A DNA stretch of 55,651 nt from Halioglobus sp. (lineage in GTDB: Bacteria > Pseudomonadota > Gammaproteobacteria > Pseudomonadales > Halieaceae): contig PABK01000010.1 of the NCBI GenBank assembly GCA_002699145.1, positions 1 through 55,651 on the forward strand, given 5' to 3'. The translations under genes were made by a program, and so were the position numbers. The notes under the pieces were generated by a model. The model saw nothing but the letters and a program-made list of their open reading frames with translations. It made no database searches and had not been told where the DNA came from. The first letter of the stretch is position 1, and the number at the start of each line of letters is the position of its first letter. Positions 32,736 through 48,904 of the stretch are shown piece after piece.

Positions 32736-32936
32736 CCTGTCGCCGACGGATTCGCCCTGAGCGGGACGCTGGCATGCTGGTTCGATGTCGGCAGTCCCAC
32801 GGCCTACCTCGCACACCAGCGCCTGGGGCAGTGGCAACGACAGTACGCGCCGCCGCCGGAGCAGCGCTCCCTGTTGCCGGGCGGCGTGTTCGGCGCGCCG
32901 CCGTCGCCCGTCGTTCCCGCTACCGTGTCAGCGTAA
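32736..32936 (+). pseudogene. N-terminal remnant of a DsbA-fold 2-hydroxychromene-2-carboxylate isomerase
   Basis: In the frame directly after the thiamine-binding stop codon, 66 codons read ...LACWFDVGSPTAYLAHQRL... and ...LLPGGVFGAPPSPVVPAT... up to TAA at 32934-32936. This matches the first about 55 residues of kappa-class GST/HCCA isomerases (F-D-x-x-SP-x-x-YLA, then LLGGVF-x-x-x-x-x-SP-x-x-VPAK). The remaining about 140 residues are absent, because the VWA gene's 3' end lies there. There is no good start codon; a CTG at 32757 is the nearest candidate. I read it as a decayed gene from the same operon. Confidence 0.6.
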
Positions 32937-34821
32937 CCCGCACACGCTCACCGGACACCACCTGTACCGGTTGGCGCTGGCCGGCCGACTCCACGACATA
33001 GTTCCCAGGTTGCAGCGTCAGTACCTCGCCGCCGGCTATACCGCGGGCGATGGCGGCGCCCTGCGCGTCGAACAGGCGGTATTCGGGGTTCACCGCGCTG
33101 GCCAGGGCAGCGGCCAGCGCAGCGGCGTTGTCGGCGCGGAAATACTCGCCACCGCCCAGTTCGGCCCAGCGCGCGAAGGTCGCCGCCAAAGCCGCGTCAT
33201 CGATGGCGAAACCGACGATGTTCAGGCGCAGGTCCAGGCCCGCGGCCTGCAGCGCGGCGATCTCCGCCGCCGGGTCGCCATCACAGGTCTCCTCGCCGTC
33301 GGTGACGAGAATGATCACGCGCTGCCCGCGCACCCCCTGCAGGTCGCCGGCGGTAGCGCGCAGGGACTCCGCGATCGGCGTTTTCGCCAGGTTCATGGCA
33401 TCCACCGCCCCGATGCTGCGCTGCGCCGCCGCCGGCTCCAGCGGGGCCAGCGGAATCTCCAGCTCTGTATGGCAGGCGCCCGCCTCGCGGTGGCCGAAAA
33501 TGCGCAGGGCGAAAGGCGTTCCGGCGGGGATGGTGTCCGCGACCAGCGCCTGCAAGGTGCGTCGCGCAATAGCGACCCTGCGCTCGCCGTCCAGGCGCTG
33601 CAGCATGCTGCCGGAGGCGTCCAGCACCAGTTCCACCGCATCATCCGCCGCGAACGCGGAACTGCCCGCAGCCTCCACCAGCAGGCTCCCCGGCGGCTGC
33701 GGCGGCGGGGTTACCTGCAGCGGTCGCGTGGCCAGCACACGTCCGCCGTGGCTGAGGTAGCGCAGTTCGTACTGCCCCGGCGCGGCGGGCGCAAACACCC
33801 TGACCACCTCGCCCCGGGCGGGATCGATATAGCTGTAGGCGACGTCGTCGTCGCTGCCCGGCGGCACCACCTGCACCCGGTCGCCGCGGTTGCCCGGCCC
33901 TTCCCAGGTCACCGGGAAATAGGCGGCGCCGGGTACCGCGTCCGCCGCCTGCAGGGCGGCGCTCACCGCGACCACGCTGAACGCCGTCTCGCCAATGACC
34001 TGTCCGCCGGTGAGGTAGACCACCGAGTAGTCGCCCGGCTCCTCGGGTGCGCGCAGGGTGACCGCGCCCGGGTTGTGTCCGGTGTATGAGTAACTGCCGG
34101 CGGCCGCTCCCGCGGCGTTCATCACCCGCAGCATATCGCCGCGATTGTCCGGCCCGCTCCAGTCAACGGAAAAATGCGCGCCGGCGGCCACCTCGGCGGG
34201 GGCGCGTAGCTGCGCCTGCACCCCGCCCACGCGAATGTCCACGGCGCCGATTTCGCGCTTGCCGCTGAAATAGGCCACCCGGTAGTCGCCCGGCGACGTG
34301 GGGGCGCGCAGGGTCAGGACATCGCCCTTCGCGATGCCGACATAGGCGTACAGGCCACTCAGCGGTTTACCCGCGGCGTCGGTAAACTGGATGTAATCGC
34401 CCTTGTTCAGGGGGCCTTCGAACGCCACTTCCACCGCGGCGTTCATTTCGACCTCCGGCGCCACCTCCAGGCGCGCGCTGATGGGCGTGACCGTCAACGG
34501 GTAGCTGGCGACCACCTCCCGCTGCGCGAGGTAGACCACCGCGTACTCGCCCGGCTCCACCGGTGCGGTGAGCCTGATGACCCCGTTTTTGGCGTTGCCG
34601 ACGTAGGCGTAGCTGCCCCCCAGCACCGTGCCCTGGGCATCGCTGAAACGCAGCATATCGCCGCTGCCGCCGGGGCCCGAGACGCGCACGTCGAAGGTCT
34701 CGTAGGCCTTTACCACCTGCGGCAGCAGCAGGGTCGGCGTCTCTGCCGGCGTCTGCGCCAGCGCGGCGGCGCACAGGCAGGCCAACAACAGTGGCAGTGC
34801 GGCTTTACGAATCAGTGACAT
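32920..34821 (-). CDS. Exported Ig-like repeat protein with C-terminal VWA domain
   Basis: A 633-residue secreted protein with a signal peptide (MSLIRKAALPLLLACLCAAALA). Four Ig-like repeats of about 90 residues follow, each with a GP-x-x-x-GD...G-x-Y-x-YV...V-x-L-x-AP...PG-x-Y-x-V-x-Y pattern. The VWA domain (about 395-580) has an intact MIDAS start DASGSM, LAKTPIAESL and VTDGEETCDGDP. A short C-terminal beta domain (GEVLTLQPGNYVVES) ends it. VWA domains bind metal and protein partners, so an adhesive or sensor role at the cell surface is inferred. GGAGG lies 7 bases before the ATG at 34821. The 3' end overlaps the isomerase remnant by 17 bases. The gene lies immediately outside the left repeat of the island. 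Confidence 0.85.
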   Translation of the reverse strand: MSLIRKAALPLLLACLCAAALAQTPAETPTLLLPQVVKAYETFDVRVSGPGGSGDMLRFSDAQGTVLGGSYAYVGNAKNGVIRLTAPVEPGEYAVVYLAQREVVASYPLTVTPISARLEVAPEVEMNAAVEVAFEGPLNKGDYIQFTDAAGKPLSGLYAYVGIAKGDVLTLRAPTSPGDYRVAYFSGKREIGAVDIRVGGVQAQLRAPAEVAAGAHFSVDWSGPDNRGDMLRVMNAAGAAAGSYSYTGHNPGAVTLRAPEEPGDYSVVYLTGGQVIGETAFSVVAVSAALQAADAVPGAAYFPVTWEGPGNRGDRVQVVPPGSDDDVAYSYIDPARGEVVRVFAPAAPGQYELRYLSHGGRVLATRPLQVTPPPQPPGSLLVEAAGSSAFAADDAVELVLDASGSMLQRLDGERRVAIARRTLQALVADTIPAGTPFALRIFGHREAGACHTELEIPLAPLEPAAAQRSIGAVDAMNLAKTPIAESLRATAGDLQGVRGQRVIILVTDGEETCDGDPAAEIAALQAAGLDLRLNIVGFAIDDAALAATFARWAELGGGEYFRADNAAALAAALASAVNPEYRLFDAQGAAIARGIAGGEVLTLQPGNYVVESAGQRQPVQVVSGERVRVTLTR

Positions 34822-34870
34822 GGGCGACCTCCGACATTCTCGATGTGTCAAAGGTAGGGAGGGAATCAGG

Positions 34871-34892
34871 ATTGGTCAATCAATCGCGCAAC
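34871..34892 (+). repeat. Left direct repeat of the recX island (candidate attL)
   Basis: A 22-bp sequence beginning ATTGGTCAATC and ending GCGCAAC, identical to 40271-40292. It lies 50 bases upstream of the start of the VWA gene. Confidence 0.7.
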
Positions 34893-34943
34893 CGCTACCG
34901 GCATTGACCCGCATTGCACCCAGGGCGATGTGGAACGAGCGAG

Positions 34944-35075
34944 CTAATCCGCGGATCGGGAATCATCTCGTTCAGCGCCAAGCGAACTGCAAAATGTACG
35001 CGAAATAGTCTTGTGTAAGAGCCCCTGCCTGTGCGGGCGCCCCGGCCAGAGATACGTTTTCAGCACCTTGCTCAT
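34944..35075 (-). other. Short open frame with strong ribosome site at the island's left end
   Basis: A 43-codon frame (MSKVLKTYLWPGRPHRQGLL...) starts at 35075, preceded by AGGAG at 7-bp spacing. Just upstream another frame ends at 35086-35088 with ...RGRKLSRRTSRRSMIEAA, a basic C-terminus. The arrangement looks like the junction of two genes of a degraded mobility module, but I recognise neither product. The rest of 34893-35273 shows no gene and should contain the regulator's promoter. Confidence 0.3.
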
Positions 35076-35273
35076 TGAAAAGCTCCTATGCGGCCTCGAT
35101 CATACTGCGGCGGGAGGTTCGGCGCGACAGCTTCCTGCCACGTTCATCGGCACTCGCTATGACCACTTGAACTCCTGATTGATACAGGTGTTTACCTCTA
35201 AATTGTCTACTGATAACGTGTGCTTCGTGCAATCCAATGCTTTGGATCCGGCAAATCGACAGAATACACAGCC

Positions 35274-35888
35274 ATGGCTCGCCCAAGTACACCACTCATC
35301 GACAAAGACAAGACCCTCGAGGTAGCCCTGGAGATTGTCGACAATGAGGGCCTTGCAGCGCTTAGTATCCGGCGTTTGGGTAAGGAACTGAATGTCGCCG
35401 GATATTCCCTCTATCATCACTTCAAAAACAAAGAAGGCATTCTAGTAGCCCTTTGCAAATACGTACTGGACCAGATCGAGTATAAAGAGCCAGCGGGTCA
35501 GTCGTGGCAGGCTACGACCCTCGATTCACAGATGCGCGCCTACGAAATCCTGAGCAATCACCCCAACATCGTCCCTGCAATCATCGAACACAACTTACTC
35601 GGCGTACGCAGGTACGAATCTGAACAGGTCGCCAGGTACCTGGCAGACAAGGGACTGCCCGCAGAGGCCATCCTCGCACTCATCGAATGCCAGGCTATAC
35701 TTGTCGCCGGTTTTCTCAGTCTCGAGTCTCTGGAAGAAAATTTCTCCCGGGATGCCTCACTGGAAGTCGATGCGCCCTATCTTTTTGAGCTCGGCAAAAA
35801 CGCCGAGTTCCTGTCCCGAGCGCAACTCCTGAAACTCGTCACTCTCTCCCTGATCGATGGCATCGAGAAAAAATACTCCCTGTCGTAA
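35274..35888 (+). CDS. TetR-family transcriptional regulator
   Basis: A 204-residue regulator. The N-terminal helix-turn-helix reads ALEIVDNEGLAALSIRRLGKELNVAGYSLYHHFKNKEGILVAL, matching TetR proteins, though the usual PSALY is GYSLY. The C-terminal part is helical and probably binds a ligand. The start at 35274 (MARPSTP) is typical; an earlier ATG at 35220 is not needed. It faces the P450 gene tail-to-tail and most likely represses the island's P450, ligase and SDR genes. Confidence 0.88.
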   Translation: MARPSTPLIDKDKTLEVALEIVDNEGLAALSIRRLGKELNVAGYSLYHHFKNKEGILVALCKYVLDQIEYKEPAGQSWQATTLDSQMRAYEILSNHPNIVPAIIEHNLLGVRRYESEQVARYLADKGLPAEAILALIECQAILVAGFLSLESLEENFSRDASLEVDAPYLFELGKNAEFLSRAQLLKLVTLSLIDGIEKKYSLS

Positions 35889-35996
35889 CAGGTCCGAATC
35901 TGGAATTTCTGCAGCAGCATTTATGATTTCCTGAGCCATTGGGCACACCGCTGGCTCGACAACAGCGCCAAAGTTGTGGTGCGGAATTCACGAGCA

Positions 35997-37232
35997 CTAC
36001 CTGAACCTGAACCTGACAGGCAGATTTTTCAGACCACTGACAAGGTTTGAAGCAAGATACCTGGGCTCCCCAGCCAGCTCCAACATCTCAAGCCTGGGCA
36101 GCAGTTCCTTGAGATAGGCCGCGATCTCCATTTTTGCCAGATGCTGACCAAGGCACATATGGGGACCATAACCGAAAGCCACATGCTTGCTGTTCTCGCG
36201 TTCGATCTGGAACTGATCAGCATCAGGGATAACCGTTTCGTCTCTGGCGCCAGATGCAAACAGCAGCATGACAGTATCGCCCCTGGCGATCCTCTGCCCA
36301 CCGATTTCAACATCTTCCACAGCGGTACGCGCAAAATGCTTGACCGGCGAAACCCAGCGAATCATCTCATTCGCCGCAGCCGGAATGAGATCAGGTTTTT
36401 CACGTAGTTTTTGCATTTGCTGCGGGTGCTCAACAAGTGCAAGGAGACCACCAGCTAGTGACGCGCTGGTAGTGTCGTGCCCTGCAGTTACTACAATCAA
36501 TAAATAGCCAAGAATAGAGACAAGGTCCATGGGCTCACCGTCAATCTCGGCATTGACGATAAGGCTTACCAGGTCGCTCCCCGGATTGGCCTTACGCTCT
36601 TCTATCAGGGGCGAGAGGTACTCATAGAATCTTGTGAGAGCTTCAGCCTGCGTCAGTTTTTCGTCACTGAGCAGGTTATCGTCATCGTAGCCGAACAACT
36701 GCTGGGTCAGGGTAATGATCTTGACATCATCTTCTTTGGGTATGTCAGCCAGGCCAAGTATCACCCGCAACGGATACCAGAATGCGACATCCGTGGCGAA
36801 ATCGCAGGCTGGCGCTTGTCTCTCCATCAAATCCACATACGCCTTCGCAGCTTCGGCCACCATGCTCTCACGTCCCCTGAGGTTACGTGGCATAAACCAG
36901 TCCCTGGTCACGTCGCGGAATTTGCGATGTAAATCTCCATCCATGGAAACCAGCCCCTGCCCGGTTTCGCCCAGGTCGAACTCCTTGATCGCTTCTTCAT
37001 TTTCGATTGGCATGATTGTTGAGCGCGGCGCAGCGAGGAACTTGTCCGTGTTGCTTTCGATGAATTTGATATCGTTCGCCCTGCTAATAAGCCACATGGG
37101 ACGATATCCCTCTGGCTCTACCCAACAGACCGGCTGCTCACGACGCAGCCGGGCCATGAGTTTATGCACCTCAACAGGGTTGCTGTAGCTCCCTGCATCC
37201 GCCAGTACCGCCGCCTCTTGCTGAATCGACAT
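35997..37232 (-). CDS. Soluble bacterial cytochrome P450
   Basis: A 411-residue class I-type P450 without a membrane anchor. The I-helix reads VVTAGHDTTSASLAGG (oxygen activation), the ExxR motif is NEMIRW, and the haem loop is FGYGPHMCLGQHLA with the thiolate ligand Cys360. It needs a ferredoxin and reductase, which are not in the window. The neighbouring acyl-CoA synthetase and SDR suggest oxidation of a terpenoid, steroid or alicyclic compound that is then oxidised and CoA-activated. GAGGAGGT lies 6-7 bases before the ATG. It is divergent from the ligase-SDR pair. Confidence 0.93.
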   Translation of the reverse strand: MSIQQEAAVLADAGSYSNPVEVHKLMARLRREQPVCWVEPEGYRPMWLISRANDIKFIESNTDKFLAAPRSTIMPIENEEAIKEFDLGETGQGLVSMDGDLHRKFRDVTRDWFMPRNLRGRESMVAEAAKAYVDLMERQAPACDFATDVAFWYPLRVILGLADIPKEDDVKIITLTQQLFGYDDDNLLSDEKLTQAEALTRFYEYLSPLIEERKANPGSDLVSLIVNAEIDGEPMDLVSILGYLLIVVTAGHDTTSASLAGGLLALVEHPQQMQKLREKPDLIPAAANEMIRWVSPVKHFARTAVEDVEIGGQRIARGDTVMLLFASGARDETVIPDADQFQIERENSKHVAFGYGPHMCLGQHLAKMEIAAYLKELLPRLEMLELAGEPRYLASNLVSGLKNLPVRFRFR

Positions 37233-37669
37233 TTCGTAACCTCCTCGCTAGTGGCGCCCGCCAACCTGGAACTCGATAAGGCAGGAAGAAGCCACGCTCA
37301 ATTATTCTTACGCCATAAGGTTTACAATCCTTACACTGTCTGATTAAATAATCAAGCAGATTCGCCATATCCGCTCCGATATCGAGATCACAGCATTGCA
37401 AACGGTAATAAAGCCTTGCACCCCACTTGCCCGGGAGGATGCTTCCCTTATTCACACGCCAGGGACGACCTGTACAGGACATTGTCGCTTGCGCCAGGCC
37501 TGAACGGGCACGGTGGGTTGAGACGCTTACGACGGGGACAACGGCGATGCACCGTGGCGACAAAATTGTCGCTCGATGGCACAGAACAAATCTTTTCTAT
37601 CGGCGCTGCAACTTCCGAATACCAGGCTGACCGAATGACAGCCATAGAAAATATAGGTGAATAACTACT
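37233..37669. other. Divergent P450/ligase intergenic region
   Basis: These 437 bases contain no gene I can support. They are AT-rich near the P450 start and must hold the divergent promoters. A 14-bp palindrome at 37341-37354 and an AAGG...CCTT inverted element near 37,317-37,332 are visible. Confidence 0.5.
37341..37354. promoter_or_regulatory. Candidate TetR operator palindrome
   Basis: TGATTA-AA-TAATCA is a perfect inverted repeat about 110 bases upstream of the P450 start. Size and symmetry suit a TetR-family operator, and the regulator gene is in the same island. Only symmetry and position support it. Confidence 0.35.
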
Positions 37670-39217
37670 GTGTACCCTGGAAAACACGTGGCACTAAATC
37701 CCGGGCGCCCGGCGCTCGTTATGGCTTCAACTGGTGAAACTGTCACCTACAGAGAGTACGAATCACGCTGTAACAAGCTAGCTCACCTACTGCGTGATGC
37801 AGGACTCCTGGAGGGCGATCACTATGCAATCTTCATGGAGAATAATTCACGCTATATAGAGGCATGTGGCGCGGGCGAACGAGCGGGCCTCTACTACACG
37901 CCAATCAATTCGTATCTGAAAGCCGAAGAACTCGCGTATATCATCAACAATTGTGACGCCAAAGTGCTGATCACATCTGCCAAAAAGCTGGATGTAGTTC
38001 ACGAAGCCCTGGGTGGGTGTCCCAATATTGAGCTGATACTGGTCGTGAACGCCGCGCGCCTCAGCCAGGTTACAGACTACGATGCTGCAATAGCGGATTT
38101 TCCAGACACGCCGATCGGCGACGAATCCCTGGGCAGCGCGATGCTGTACTCATCAGGAACAACTGGCCGACCCAAAGGTATACTGCGCCCACTGACGGGC
38201 ACACGGCCCGGTGAGAATCCGCCGCTTTGCGAGATATACGCGCAATTGTTCAAGTTCCGTGAAGACATGGTCTACCTGTCTCCCGCACCTCTTTACCACG
38301 CTGCACCGCAGGCATCCGTCAACGCCAGCATCCGGCACGGCGGGACCGTGGTCATCATGGAACGCTTCGATCCCGAGCAATATCTACAACTGGTTGAGAA
38401 ATACCAGGTCACGCACAGCCAACTCGTTCCCACGATGTTCAGCCGCATGTTGAAACTGCCCGATGAAGTGCGCAATACCTATGATGTTTCCTCGCTGGAA
38501 AGTGCTGCCCACGCAGCAGCGCCCTGTCCCATTCCGGTGAAAGAACAGATGATTGAGTGGTGGGGCCCTGTTATCTACGAATACTACAGTTCATCAGAAG
38601 GGCTTGGGCTTGCCTACTGCACCAGTGATGAATGGCTACAACACAAAGGCACGGTCGGCCGAATTGTCGCGGGCAAGCTACACGTACTTGACCCGAACCA
38701 CGATCCCGTACCGAGCGGTTGCTCGGGGGAACTATGGTTTGAACGGGCAAGCGATTTCGAATACTACCAGGACGAACAAAGGACGCGGGATGCATCATCC
38801 AGCGATGGGTCTTTATCTACCGTGGGCGATATTGGCTACATGGACGAGGACGGCTACCTGTACCTGACAGACCGCTCCACGTTTATGATCATTTCTGGCG
38901 GCGTGAACATTTATCCCCAGGAATGTGAAAATCTACTAATCACACATCCCAAGGTAGCCGACGCCGCGGTGTTTGGTGTACCCAATTCCGACCTGGGCGA
39001 AGAGGTCAAAGCTGTCGTGCAGGCAATGCCAGGTGTGCACCCCGATGACGAACTCGCGGAGGAGCTGATCGACTTTTGCCAGCGACACCTCTCGATACAG
39101 AAGTCGCCACGCTCAATCGATTTCGAAGCGGAACTTCCGCGACTACCCACAGGAAAGCTTTACAAACAGGAGCTGCGCGAGCGGTACTGGCAAAATCACA
39201 AGGGACGAATAGTTTAA
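37670..39217 (+). CDS. Acyl-CoA synthetase (AMP-forming, FadD-like)
   Basis: A 515-residue class I adenylate-forming enzyme. Motifs in order are the P-loop YSSGTTGRPKGILRP (about 163-177), YEYYSSSEGLG (A5), the hinge region GDIGYMDEDGYLYLTDRSTFMIISGGVNIYPQE (A7-A8) and the C-terminal lysine motif LPTGKLYKQELR. It activates a carboxylic acid to its CoA ester, probably the product of P450 and SDR oxidation. The start is GTG with AGGTGA about 10 bases upstream. The SDR begins 33 bases downstream. Confidence 0.9.
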   Translation: MYPGKHVALNPGRPALVMASTGETVTYREYESRCNKLAHLLRDAGLLEGDHYAIFMENNSRYIEACGAGERAGLYYTPINSYLKAEELAYIINNCDAKVLITSAKKLDVVHEALGGCPNIELILVVNAARLSQVTDYDAAIADFPDTPIGDESLGSAMLYSSGTTGRPKGILRPLTGTRPGENPPLCEIYAQLFKFREDMVYLSPAPLYHAAPQASVNASIRHGGTVVIMERFDPEQYLQLVEKYQVTHSQLVPTMFSRMLKLPDEVRNTYDVSSLESAAHAAAPCPIPVKEQMIEWWGPVIYEYYSSSEGLGLAYCTSDEWLQHKGTVGRIVAGKLHVLDPNHDPVPSGCSGELWFERASDFEYYQDEQRTRDASSSDGSLSTVGDIGYMDEDGYLYLTDRSTFMIISGGVNIYPQECENLLITHPKVADAAVFGVPNSDLGEEVKAVVQAMPGVHPDDELAEELIDFCQRHLSIQKSPRSIDFEAELPRLPTGKLYKQELRERYWQNHKGRIV

Positions 39218-39250
39218 GCCCGTCCGTCCAATACGAACAAGGACTAGTGA

Positions 39251-40084
39251 GTGAGCAATATAGCAAATCGAGTAATCCTGATTACTGGCGCAGCCAGAGG
39301 AATCGGTCAACTGCTGGCGAGCAGAGCTGCCGCGCGTGGCGCCCTCGTAGTGGCCTGCGATATCAATGAGTCGGAACTGCAAGACGTGGTCGGCTCGATT
39401 ATCGGCGGTGGCGGCAAGGCAGTGAGCGTACGCGCAGATGTAACCAAGGCCGACGACATGTACTCCGCTGCCAGGTTCGCCGTTAAGGAATTCGGTCAAC
39501 TGGATGTTCTCGTGAACAATGCCGGCATTATGCCACTGGCCTACTTTTCCGATCATGCGAAGGCAGGAAACGCCTGGAGCCGCTGTATAGACATCAACCT
39601 GAAGGGCGTGATCAACGGGGTTTCAGCGGTATACGACCAAATGTTCGAACAAGGTAGAGGCCATGTCGTCAACATATCCTCAATTTTCGCGAACTACCCA
39701 ACCAAAGGCGGCACCGTGTACGGCGCAACCAAAGCTGCGATTAACTATTTGAGCGAATCGCTGCGTCAGGAAACCCAGGGCAAAATCAAAGTGACCACTG
39801 TACGCCCCACGGCGATACCCAGTACAAGCTTGAACGAATCGGTTATCAATGAAGCTGCGCCCATGGGCCTGATGGGGAATAATGCGGGCGAGATGCTCGA
39901 GCGCCTGACCACGCTCACCGCCGGACAAGCTCAGCCCGCCTGGCTGGATAGCGAGAGTATCGAGTACCTGATGATGGAGCCAGAACCTCTGGTAGACCAG
40001 ATTCTCTATGCAATCGATCAGCCCTGGGGCGTTTCGATTAGCGACTTGACGGTTCGCGCAAGTGGTGACTTGTTCGTCGTTTAG
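39251..40084 (+). CDS. Short-chain dehydrogenase/reductase
   Basis: A 277-residue classical SDR: cofactor loop TGAARGIG near the N-terminus with an acidic residue after the second strand (VACDINE), which favours NAD. NNAG, Ser in NISSIFANYP and YGATK provide the catalytic set. It probably oxidises an alcohol made by the P450. The start is GTG at 39251. It is the last gene of the island cargo. Confidence 0.9.
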   Translation: MSNIANRVILITGAARGIGQLLASRAAARGALVVACDINESELQDVVGSIIGGGGKAVSVRADVTKADDMYSAARFAVKEFGQLDVLVNNAGIMPLAYFSDHAKAGNAWSRCIDINLKGVINGVSAVYDQMFEQGRGHVVNISSIFANYPTKGGTVYGATKAAINYLSESLRQETQGKIKVTTVRPTAIPSTSLNESVINEAAPMGLMGNNAGEMLERLTTLTAGQAQPAWLDSESIEYLMMEPEPLVDQILYAIDQPWGVSISDLTVRASGDLFVV

Positions 40085-40270
40085 GCGAGAGAGCCTGCGC
40101 TCGCGGTCTTTCTTTCATCGCTTTTCCCAACCCCGTCAGGGGCAAGTATCAGGCAGCAAATATTGCCTGGCTCGCTTTTAGCTGCCCAGCCTTTCGCCGC
40201 CGCAGCCTTCGCGATTCCTCAAGGCGACATTGCACGCTACACCTGCGGCGAAGCCAGGGAGGGATTGCGA
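40085..40270. other. Non-coding right end of the island
   Basis: No gene is visible in these 186 bases. There is a short hairpin AGGCA...TGCCT at 40151-40168 and a longer imperfect inverted pair CGCCGCCGCAG/CTGCGGCG around 40195-40250. They could end transcription of the SDR gene or form part of the recombination site. Confidence 0.4.
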
Positions 40271-40292
40271 ATTGGTCAATCAATCGCGCAAC
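40271..40292 (+). repeat. Right direct repeat, overlapping the recX stop (candidate attR)
   Basis: Identical over 22 bases to 34871-34892. It contains the recX stop codon at 40280-40282 and the codons for the last four residues (LLRD). Confidence 0.7.
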
Positions 40293-40792
40293 AGGTGCTG
40301 GTAGTGTTCCGCGCTGAAACCGCGGTACTGCAGGAAACGCGCGCGGCGCGCGCGCTCGCGCACATCCGCGGCGGGTTCCTGGCCGAACTTGCGCTGCATC
40401 ACCTCCTGCGCCAGCGCCGCCCAGTCGACCGGCTCCTCGGCCATGGCCGCGTCCACCAGGTCCGCGGACACGCCGCGCTGGCGCATCTCCTGGCGGATAC
40501 GCAATGGCCCCTGCCCGCGGCTGATGCGCTGGCGCAGCAGGCTGCCGGCGTAGCGTGCGTCCGACTGCAGGTTGTCATCCACCAGTTGTTGCAGCTGCGC
40601 CTCCACCAGCTCTGCGTCGGCAAAGCGGCGCGAGAGCTTGGCGCGCAGTTCGTCCAGGGAGTGCTCCCTGCGGGCGAGCAGGTTCATCGCCGCCAGGCGG
40701 ATCTCCGCCGGGTTGAGCGCGCGTTCCGCTGCCGGGACGCCATCGCTGTCCAGGTCGGGGGCGGGATCGGGATATGGGTCCGGGTTACGCAT
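40280..40792 (-). CDS. recX: RecX regulatory protein
   Basis: A 170-residue RecX, which binds RecA filaments and limits their activity. Typical segments are NLLARREHSLDELRAKLSRRFADAELVEAQLQQLVDDNLQSDARYAGSLLRQRISRGQGPLRIRQEMRQRGVS and the C-terminal ARRARFLQYRGFSAEHYQHLL. It follows recA by 69 bases, the usual order. Its last codons form one copy of the island repeat, and the protein is complete. Confidence 0.92.
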   Translation of the reverse strand: MRNPDPYPDPAPDLDSDGVPAAERALNPAEIRLAAMNLLARREHSLDELRAKLSRRFADAELVEAQLQQLVDDNLQSDARYAGSLLRQRISRGQGPLRIRQEMRQRGVSADLVDAAMAEEPVDWAALAQEVMQRKFGQEPAADVRERARRARFLQYRGFSAEHYQHLLRD

Positions 40793-40861: not shown

Positions 40862-41908
<1,047 letters not shown>

Positions 41909-48479: not shown

Positions 48480-48904
48480 GTCATCCCCGCGCAAGCGGGG
48501 ATCCATTCGTGGGGAAGAGCGTTAGGTGTAAATGGATTCCCGCTTGCGCGGGAATGACGGGGGCGCGGGAATGACAGGGGTGCGGGAATGACAGGGGTGC
48601 GGGAATGACGGGGGTCCGCTGCGTAGGTCACCAGGACTACCGTCATCCCCGCGCAAGCGGGGATCCAGTGTGGAGGCCAGCGCAAGACAAGACTGGATTC
48701 CCGCTTTCGCGGGAGTGACGGAGGTGGGGGAGTGACGGGGGCGCGGGAATGACGGGGCGCGGAAATGACGGGGCGCGGGAATGACCGGGGTCAGCTGCGT
48801 AGGTCACCAGGACTACCGTCATCCCCGCGCAAGCGGGGATCCAGTGTGGAGGCCAGCGCAAGACAAGACTGGATTCCCGCTTTCGCGGGAATGACGGAGG
48901 TGGG
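48480..48904. repeat. Cluster of dRS3-like palindromes including a 111-bp duplication
   Basis: Six full 26-bp copies in both orientations lie at 48480-48505, 48533-48558, 48642-48667, 48694-48719, 48818-48843 and 48870-48895. The core is the form ATYCCC-N8-GGGRAT. Many half copies (GCGGGAATGAC) lie between. A 111-bp block holding two copies in opposite orientation is present twice, 48618-48728 and 48794-48904, with one visible mismatch. The region 48386-48975 has no gene. Confidence 0.85.

Follow-up and report, generated by a model that had tools for sequence, protein, structure and literature searches.

A candidate integrase-less genomic island carrying P450 and CoA ligase genes at the 3' end of recX in a Halioglobus genome

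Beside the 3' end of recX in a Halioglobus sp. genome (family Halieaceae) lies a 5.4-kb block of foreign-looking DNA, located at 34871-40292 of the 55,651-nt stretch that was analysed as a whole and is called the window below (contig PABK01000010.1 of assembly GCA_002699145.1). The block is probably a non-autonomous genomic island with no integrase of its own, resembling the cis-mobilizable elements (CIMEs) or the microcin H47 island of Escherichia coli, which recombined through a short site at the 3' end of recX. As an island it is ordinary in kind; its site is unusual. An initial annotation, made from the sequence before any search, had described exact 22-bp direct repeats, one of them carrying the end of recX, around AT-richer DNA with genes for a TetR-family regulator, a cytochrome P450, an acyl-CoA ligase and a short-chain dehydrogenase/reductase (SDR). 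This description holds, and the repeat pair proves to be unique in the genome.

The repeat pair, the block and its genes

The repeat, ATTGGTCAATCAATCGCGCAAC, is found as two exact 22-bp copies in the same orientation, here placed on the plus strand: a left copy at 34871-34892, distal to recX and similar to an attL attachment (att) site, and a right, attR-like copy at 40271-40292, over the recX end. Searching the 5.2-Mb genome for this 22-mer with up to 3 mismatches returns just these two sites, and a reversed control pattern returns none. Chance origin of the pair is unlikely because background repeats are so rare; 63 comparison sequences (1.06 Mb) together hold one exact direct repeat of at least 18 bp at a spacing of 1.5 to 20 kb, and that one is 18 bp long. 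The right copy begins 10 nt before the recX stop and extends 9 nt past it, and thus includes the last 10 coding nucleotides and the TGA. The claim that the target gene had been left intact up to its stop can be upheld: recX (40280-40792, minus strand) has three RecX domains above the Pfam cut-offs and looks intact because its C-terminus, HYQHLLRD, resembles the ends found in several relatives. recA lies at 40862-41908, also on the minus strand.

In the mechanism we propose, circular or transferred DNA would have brought the TetR-P450-ligase-SDR genes together with a site matching the recX 3' end. Recombination with the chromosome inside the 22-bp core would have left one copy at each end, and recX would have received an identical last three codons and stop. 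The exchange would be site-specific, with a recombinase that acted in trans or has since been lost. If the two sites are related, in-register similarity is to be expected on both sides of the core, and the in-register matches number 29 of 60 nt towards recX and 30 of 60 away from it, a level equalled by about 0.1% or fewer of the segments from the window, the island or relatives. A 9-bp block, AGGGAGGGA, is common to the outer arms of both copies; by the left copy it opens the arm at 34856-34870 (plus strand), where it is followed by 6 nt with 2 agreeing, in register with 40256-40270 by the right copy. Such arms would speak for att sites that are related, or for a homologous patch, rather than for a target-site duplication.

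Base composition also sets the block apart. The island body between the repeats (34893-40270) has about 54% GC in surroundings of 66 to 70%, a measurement that the initial annotation had proposed. A fit with two change points places the block at 34780-40180, with 69.5% GC to its left, 53.7% within it and 66.4% to its right, and GC at third codon positions is 0.59 to 0.64 in the four cargo genes vs 0.86 to 0.92 in six flanking genes. All four cargo genes are intact, with TetR, P450, AMP-binding and SDR domains above the Pfam cut-offs. They comprise the TetR-family regulator (35220-35888, plus strand; PF00440), with a possible ATG start at 35274, the P450 (35997-37232, minus strand; PF00067), the acyl-CoA ligase (37670-39217, plus strand; PF00501 and PF13193) and the SDR (39251-40084, plus strand; PF00106). 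For the ligase the top NCBIfam model is FadD4, at a score below its cut-off. Among solved chains, those that score best against the P450 are P450tol and P450terp (PDB 7v40 and 1cpt; also 3tkt); 1cpt and 3tkt belong to the CYP108 family. The terp operon has redox partner genes, whereas the island has none. Judged by its families, the cargo probably serves the hydroxylation of a hydrophobic compound, oxidation of the product and its CoA activation under TetR control, and the label 'catabolic' given to it earlier is plausible. A 7-2-7 inverted repeat, GCGACAA-AA-TTGTCGC, at 37557-37572 in the divergent P450/ligase intergenic region is a weak candidate for a TetR operator, as equally many palindromes arise in 101 of 500 shuffles. 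The Pfam scan gave no family for ten further island open reading frames (ORFs), which are smaller or overlapping, or for one of 130 aa (37171-37563).

The recX flank in relatives and the source of the cargo

The recX 3' flank was read in 62 relatives, one genome per species, over up to 20 kb downstream (at least 10 kb in 52 of them). In none of the 62 does the cargo stand at this place, and 13 hold paralogues only, at no more than 33% identity; relatives with the P450 genes here and no repeat, which the initial annotation held would speak against an island, were thus not encountered. Nor does any of the 62 have a direct repeat of at least 14 nt between the recX end (60 nt either side of the stop) and the downstream stretch, the longest being 13 nt in three. 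At the place corresponding to the core the best of these relatives matches 14 of 22 positions, and the relatives are distant (highest recX identity 65%).

Within the genus the flank varies and takes other inserts, and this variation is a new observation. A recX locus was obtained from 16 of 17 genus mates. dsbA lies within 53 bp after recX in six of the 16 (G005, G006, G007, G011, G012 and G013), 16.3 kb away in G010, and was not found within the stretch in the other nine. Other flanks carry fatty acid hydroxylase, ceramidase, molybdopterin enzyme or subtilase genes after recX (ten proteins scanned). The roughly 16 kb between recX and dsbA in G010 (contig C26, L173) includes nitrite-reductase-type and molybdopterin-enzyme-related genes, and this insert has no flanking repeat of at least 13 nt. 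A hotspot that works everywhere by the same mechanism was considered and set aside: the flank is variable, but across the 62 recX ends compared the repeat signature is seen in this genome only. A separate observation concerns G051, whose single contig has two recX-like matches about 35 kb apart (C1:2882269-2882709 and 2916957-2917373).

On the side away from recX, the first gene beyond the island (32920-34851, minus strand) has a weak VWA match, just below the Pfam cut-offs. It directly abuts a decayed N-terminal remnant of dsbA (32766-32924, plus strand; about 55 residues aligned, E 8e-10); the remainder of dsbA is missing, and its position is occupied by the VWA gene. The VWA gene, we infer, probably arrived at the spot and removed most of dsbA, separately from the P450 island. 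The remnant beside it therefore suggests that the recX-VWA junction is itself derived. A match to the VWA gene is present in 5 of the 17 genus mates, and the closest homologue (64% identity, in G012) is on a different contig from recX; the stretch upstream of it has no core copy (best 11/22). A third core copy beyond the VWA gene of the window, as tandem accretion might leave, was likewise not found, the best match being 12/22.

The cargo was probably acquired horizontally, since its relatives within the family are distant. This distance, seen for the P450, the ligase and the SDR, is not the picture of family-wide cargo with vertical descent that the initial annotation had named as an argument against an island. 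In the family, 140 genomes were compared including this one; outside it the P450 is matched at no more than 47% identity, and the leading matches in other family genomes are mostly at 41 to 45%, some only at about 33%. Searches in the order and the class used sampled genomes, with 3 to 6 candidates scored in each. No P450 among 368 class relatives passes E 1e-118. The ligase reaches 66% identity in another family of the order (G092) vs at most 51% in its own (17 relatives sampled), and 36 of 390 order genomes, own included, pass E 1e-160. The SDR passes E 1e-75 in just 2 of 389 order relatives, both of family f40. Partial matches to the island occur in 52 plasmid records, of which the ten listed match the ligase alone, at 68 to 70%; phage records gave no match to the island DNA, and viral_contigs gave no pattern match to the SDR.

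The idea of the cargo as a travelling cluster was tried and rejected: eight ligase neighbourhoods hold no SDR or TetR match above 70 bits, and one has a 30%-identical P450. A scan of genome_contigs for loci sharing exact peptide words with the P450 (best 80 kept) gave 79 P450 loci. In five of them genes resembling the ligase and the SDR accompany the P450 in one stretch, at 26 to 48% identity, and none has the TetR gene; the best is a Sphingobium locus (L045) in which a 48%-identical ligase lies about 1.2 kb from the P450. Among the loci examined, none has the complete TetR-P450-ligase-SDR cluster.

Recombinase search and possible routes of insertion

A number of results weigh against the reading of the block as an island recombined at an att-like site. 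The 15 island ORFs scanned with Pfam show no mobility domain (integrase, relaxase, conjugation or transposase), and the absence of an integrase, as noted at the outset, thus stands. No core copy better than 17/22 was found in 17 stretches around the integrase genes of the genome. Integration by an integrase, as first suggested, is no more than a possibility: the genome has no second element with the same core, and inverted core arms are not above shuffles (joined flanks best 6/8, P 0.43; three other sites, P 0.44 to 0.69). Gapped local alignment of the arms is not significant (P 0.90 and 0.11), and the arm matches are not concentrated at conserved recX columns (13/28 vs 17/32). In relatives the flank has been rebuilt without repeats, so that insertion here needs no such site. 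Finally, the left GC edge falls about 90 bp outside the left repeat. The 3-log-unit interval of the fit includes the right repeat and leaves the left one about 31 bp beyond it, and pinning both edges to the repeats costs 7.6 log units; the left mismatch may reflect an AT-richer upstream region of the VWA gene.

Recombinase genes do occur elsewhere in the genome. Tyrosine integrases (PF00589) have 19 matches, none of them on the contig of the window, and the one resolvase-type match (PF00239) is on contig C31, again with none on the window's contig. Serine recombinases of the PF07508 type are absent from the genome. With 19 tyrosine-recombinase proteins as queries, nothing was found at E 1e-4 in the recX-downstream loci of relatives or in the window. 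Candidates for the agent include a lost integrase, an integrase acting in trans and short-repeat recombination.

The core itself was followed further afield. Of 389 sampled order relatives, 24 have a core match with 3 mismatches and none a closer one; the reversed-pattern control hits 5 genomes. Ten of these matches were fetched, all of which lie within open frames of more than 120 codons, three of them reading VNQWRK in one frame, and the excess may be put down to coding motifs, as judged from these 10 of the 24. That the core is a tRNA fragment finds no support, since neither the window nor the ten fetched matches contain a tRNA. A viral origin was rejected, as the 5 exact matches that viral_contigs holds to a 17-mer inner core are at about chance level by a rough estimate. 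Other repeats are also present in the window, where three further pairs of at least 18 bp can be found: one of 30 bp and one of 26 bp, which represent one repeat sequence between 48.5 and 51.7 kb, and one of 19 bp. REP-like (repetitive extragenic palindrome) copies of 26 to 30 bp with an inner inverted repeat occur at 48533, 51578 and 51649 and contain TGGATTCCCGCTTGCGCGGGAATGAC.

Several other routes could have produced the present arrangement. A Campbell-type single crossover, in which a circle with a diverged recX 3' end entered through the 22-bp identity by RecA or by a RecA-independent short-repeat pathway, predicts the same geometry and would likewise leave both arms similar in register, yet we consider it doubtful. 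A tract of 22 bp is short for RecA, and the foreign recX end is uncertain: the recX-side arm contains an in-frame stop, and its matches do not favour conserved columns. A search of the left arm for a decayed foreign recX end, with a profile of 55 relatives, gave a result that is suggestive only, as 148 of 111,242 window positions score equally high. Precedent for a RecA-independent pathway can be drawn from the H47 island, whose excision was unaffected by mutants of 16 E. coli K12 site-specific recombinases or by the lack of RecA, but whose deleted form was not recovered as a clone by its authors (PMC5426353). It is unlikely, in our view, that the recX 3' end is the attachment site of an undescribed recombination system and that this system feeds a hotspot after recX in the genus, where elements would decay to bare cargo flanked by recX-like att sites, with the recX stop restored at every insertion.

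Illegitimate insertions made step by step at a tolerant place behind the recA-recX operon, with the repeat left behind by end joining or by a local duplication, would fit a flank that has clearly been rebuilt, with a dsbA remnant and the VWA gene in its place, as well as the varying position of dsbA in the 16 genus mates without flanking repeats of at least 14 nt. This course would not lead one to expect a perfect 22-bp repeat over the recX stop or arms that match in register beyond it, and we rate it quite unlikely. Transposition that left a 22-bp target-site duplication, an unusually long one, is highly improbable, even though it would account for foreign-looking DNA between identical direct repeats: the 15 island ORFs hold no transposase, a target duplication would give no similarity outside the core, and known target duplications are mostly far shorter. 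A composite transposon finds no better footing, as neither recX nor the VWA gene, the two flanking genes, is an insertion sequence. If the recombination of an integrase-less island at the recX end is confirmed, a protein-coding, DNA-repair-linked target joins the known insertion sites of islands, and the block can serve as a clean, small test case for the entry and exit of such islands. It would also be an example of a set of metabolic genes, P450 plus CoA ligase, that reached a high-GC bacterium as one unit.

Comparison with known systems

The H47 island is like the present one in being small and integrase-less and in lying between direct repeats; its own are imperfect, with short blocks of identity. 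It differs in its size of 13 kb, in its cargo and site, and in that its excision has been seen by PCR (PMC5426353), whereas the present island is known from sequence. H47 has extended, imperfect repeats of 144 to 148 bp (PMC5426353); here there are 22-bp and 9-bp blocks with about 60 nt of in-register similarity on each side, for which a gapped alignment is not significant.

CIMEs consist of att sites and cargo, are 1.2 to 13 kb long, lie at the 3' ends of housekeeping genes, and are decayed remnants of integrative and conjugative elements (ICEs) or integrative and mobilizable elements (IMEs) that keep only the att sites (PMC7563491). The present island shares with them the att-like repeats at both ends, a content of cargo only with no recombination or conjugation genes, a housekeeping 3' end and a size within this range. 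The difference is that neither the genome nor the 389 order relatives, where the best match has 3 mismatches, yielded an ICE or IME that shares the att site, and that recX is absent from the target genes named in the accessible part of PMC7563491.

The initial annotation called the recX end an unusual target. This is supported by the literature searched, which included few subscription papers and gave no description of insertion at the recX 3' end, recX being merely listed as an SOS gene in PMC2669165. The neighbourhood of recA, however, is no stranger to mobile DNA, as examples are known from Vibrio and Pseudomonas fluorescens. The Vibrio RME is mobile DNA inside recA that carries an integrase gene as well as a second recA (PMC4334540). 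It resembles the present case in that mobile DNA has landed in the recA/recX region; here, by contrast, recA and recX are both intact and no mobility gene was found in the island. Prophage 01 of P. fluorescens likewise uses the recA region as an insertion locus, but it is phage-derived and sits between mutS and the cinA-recA-recX genes, next to cinA and thus on the other side of recA-recX from the island described here (PMC2647930).

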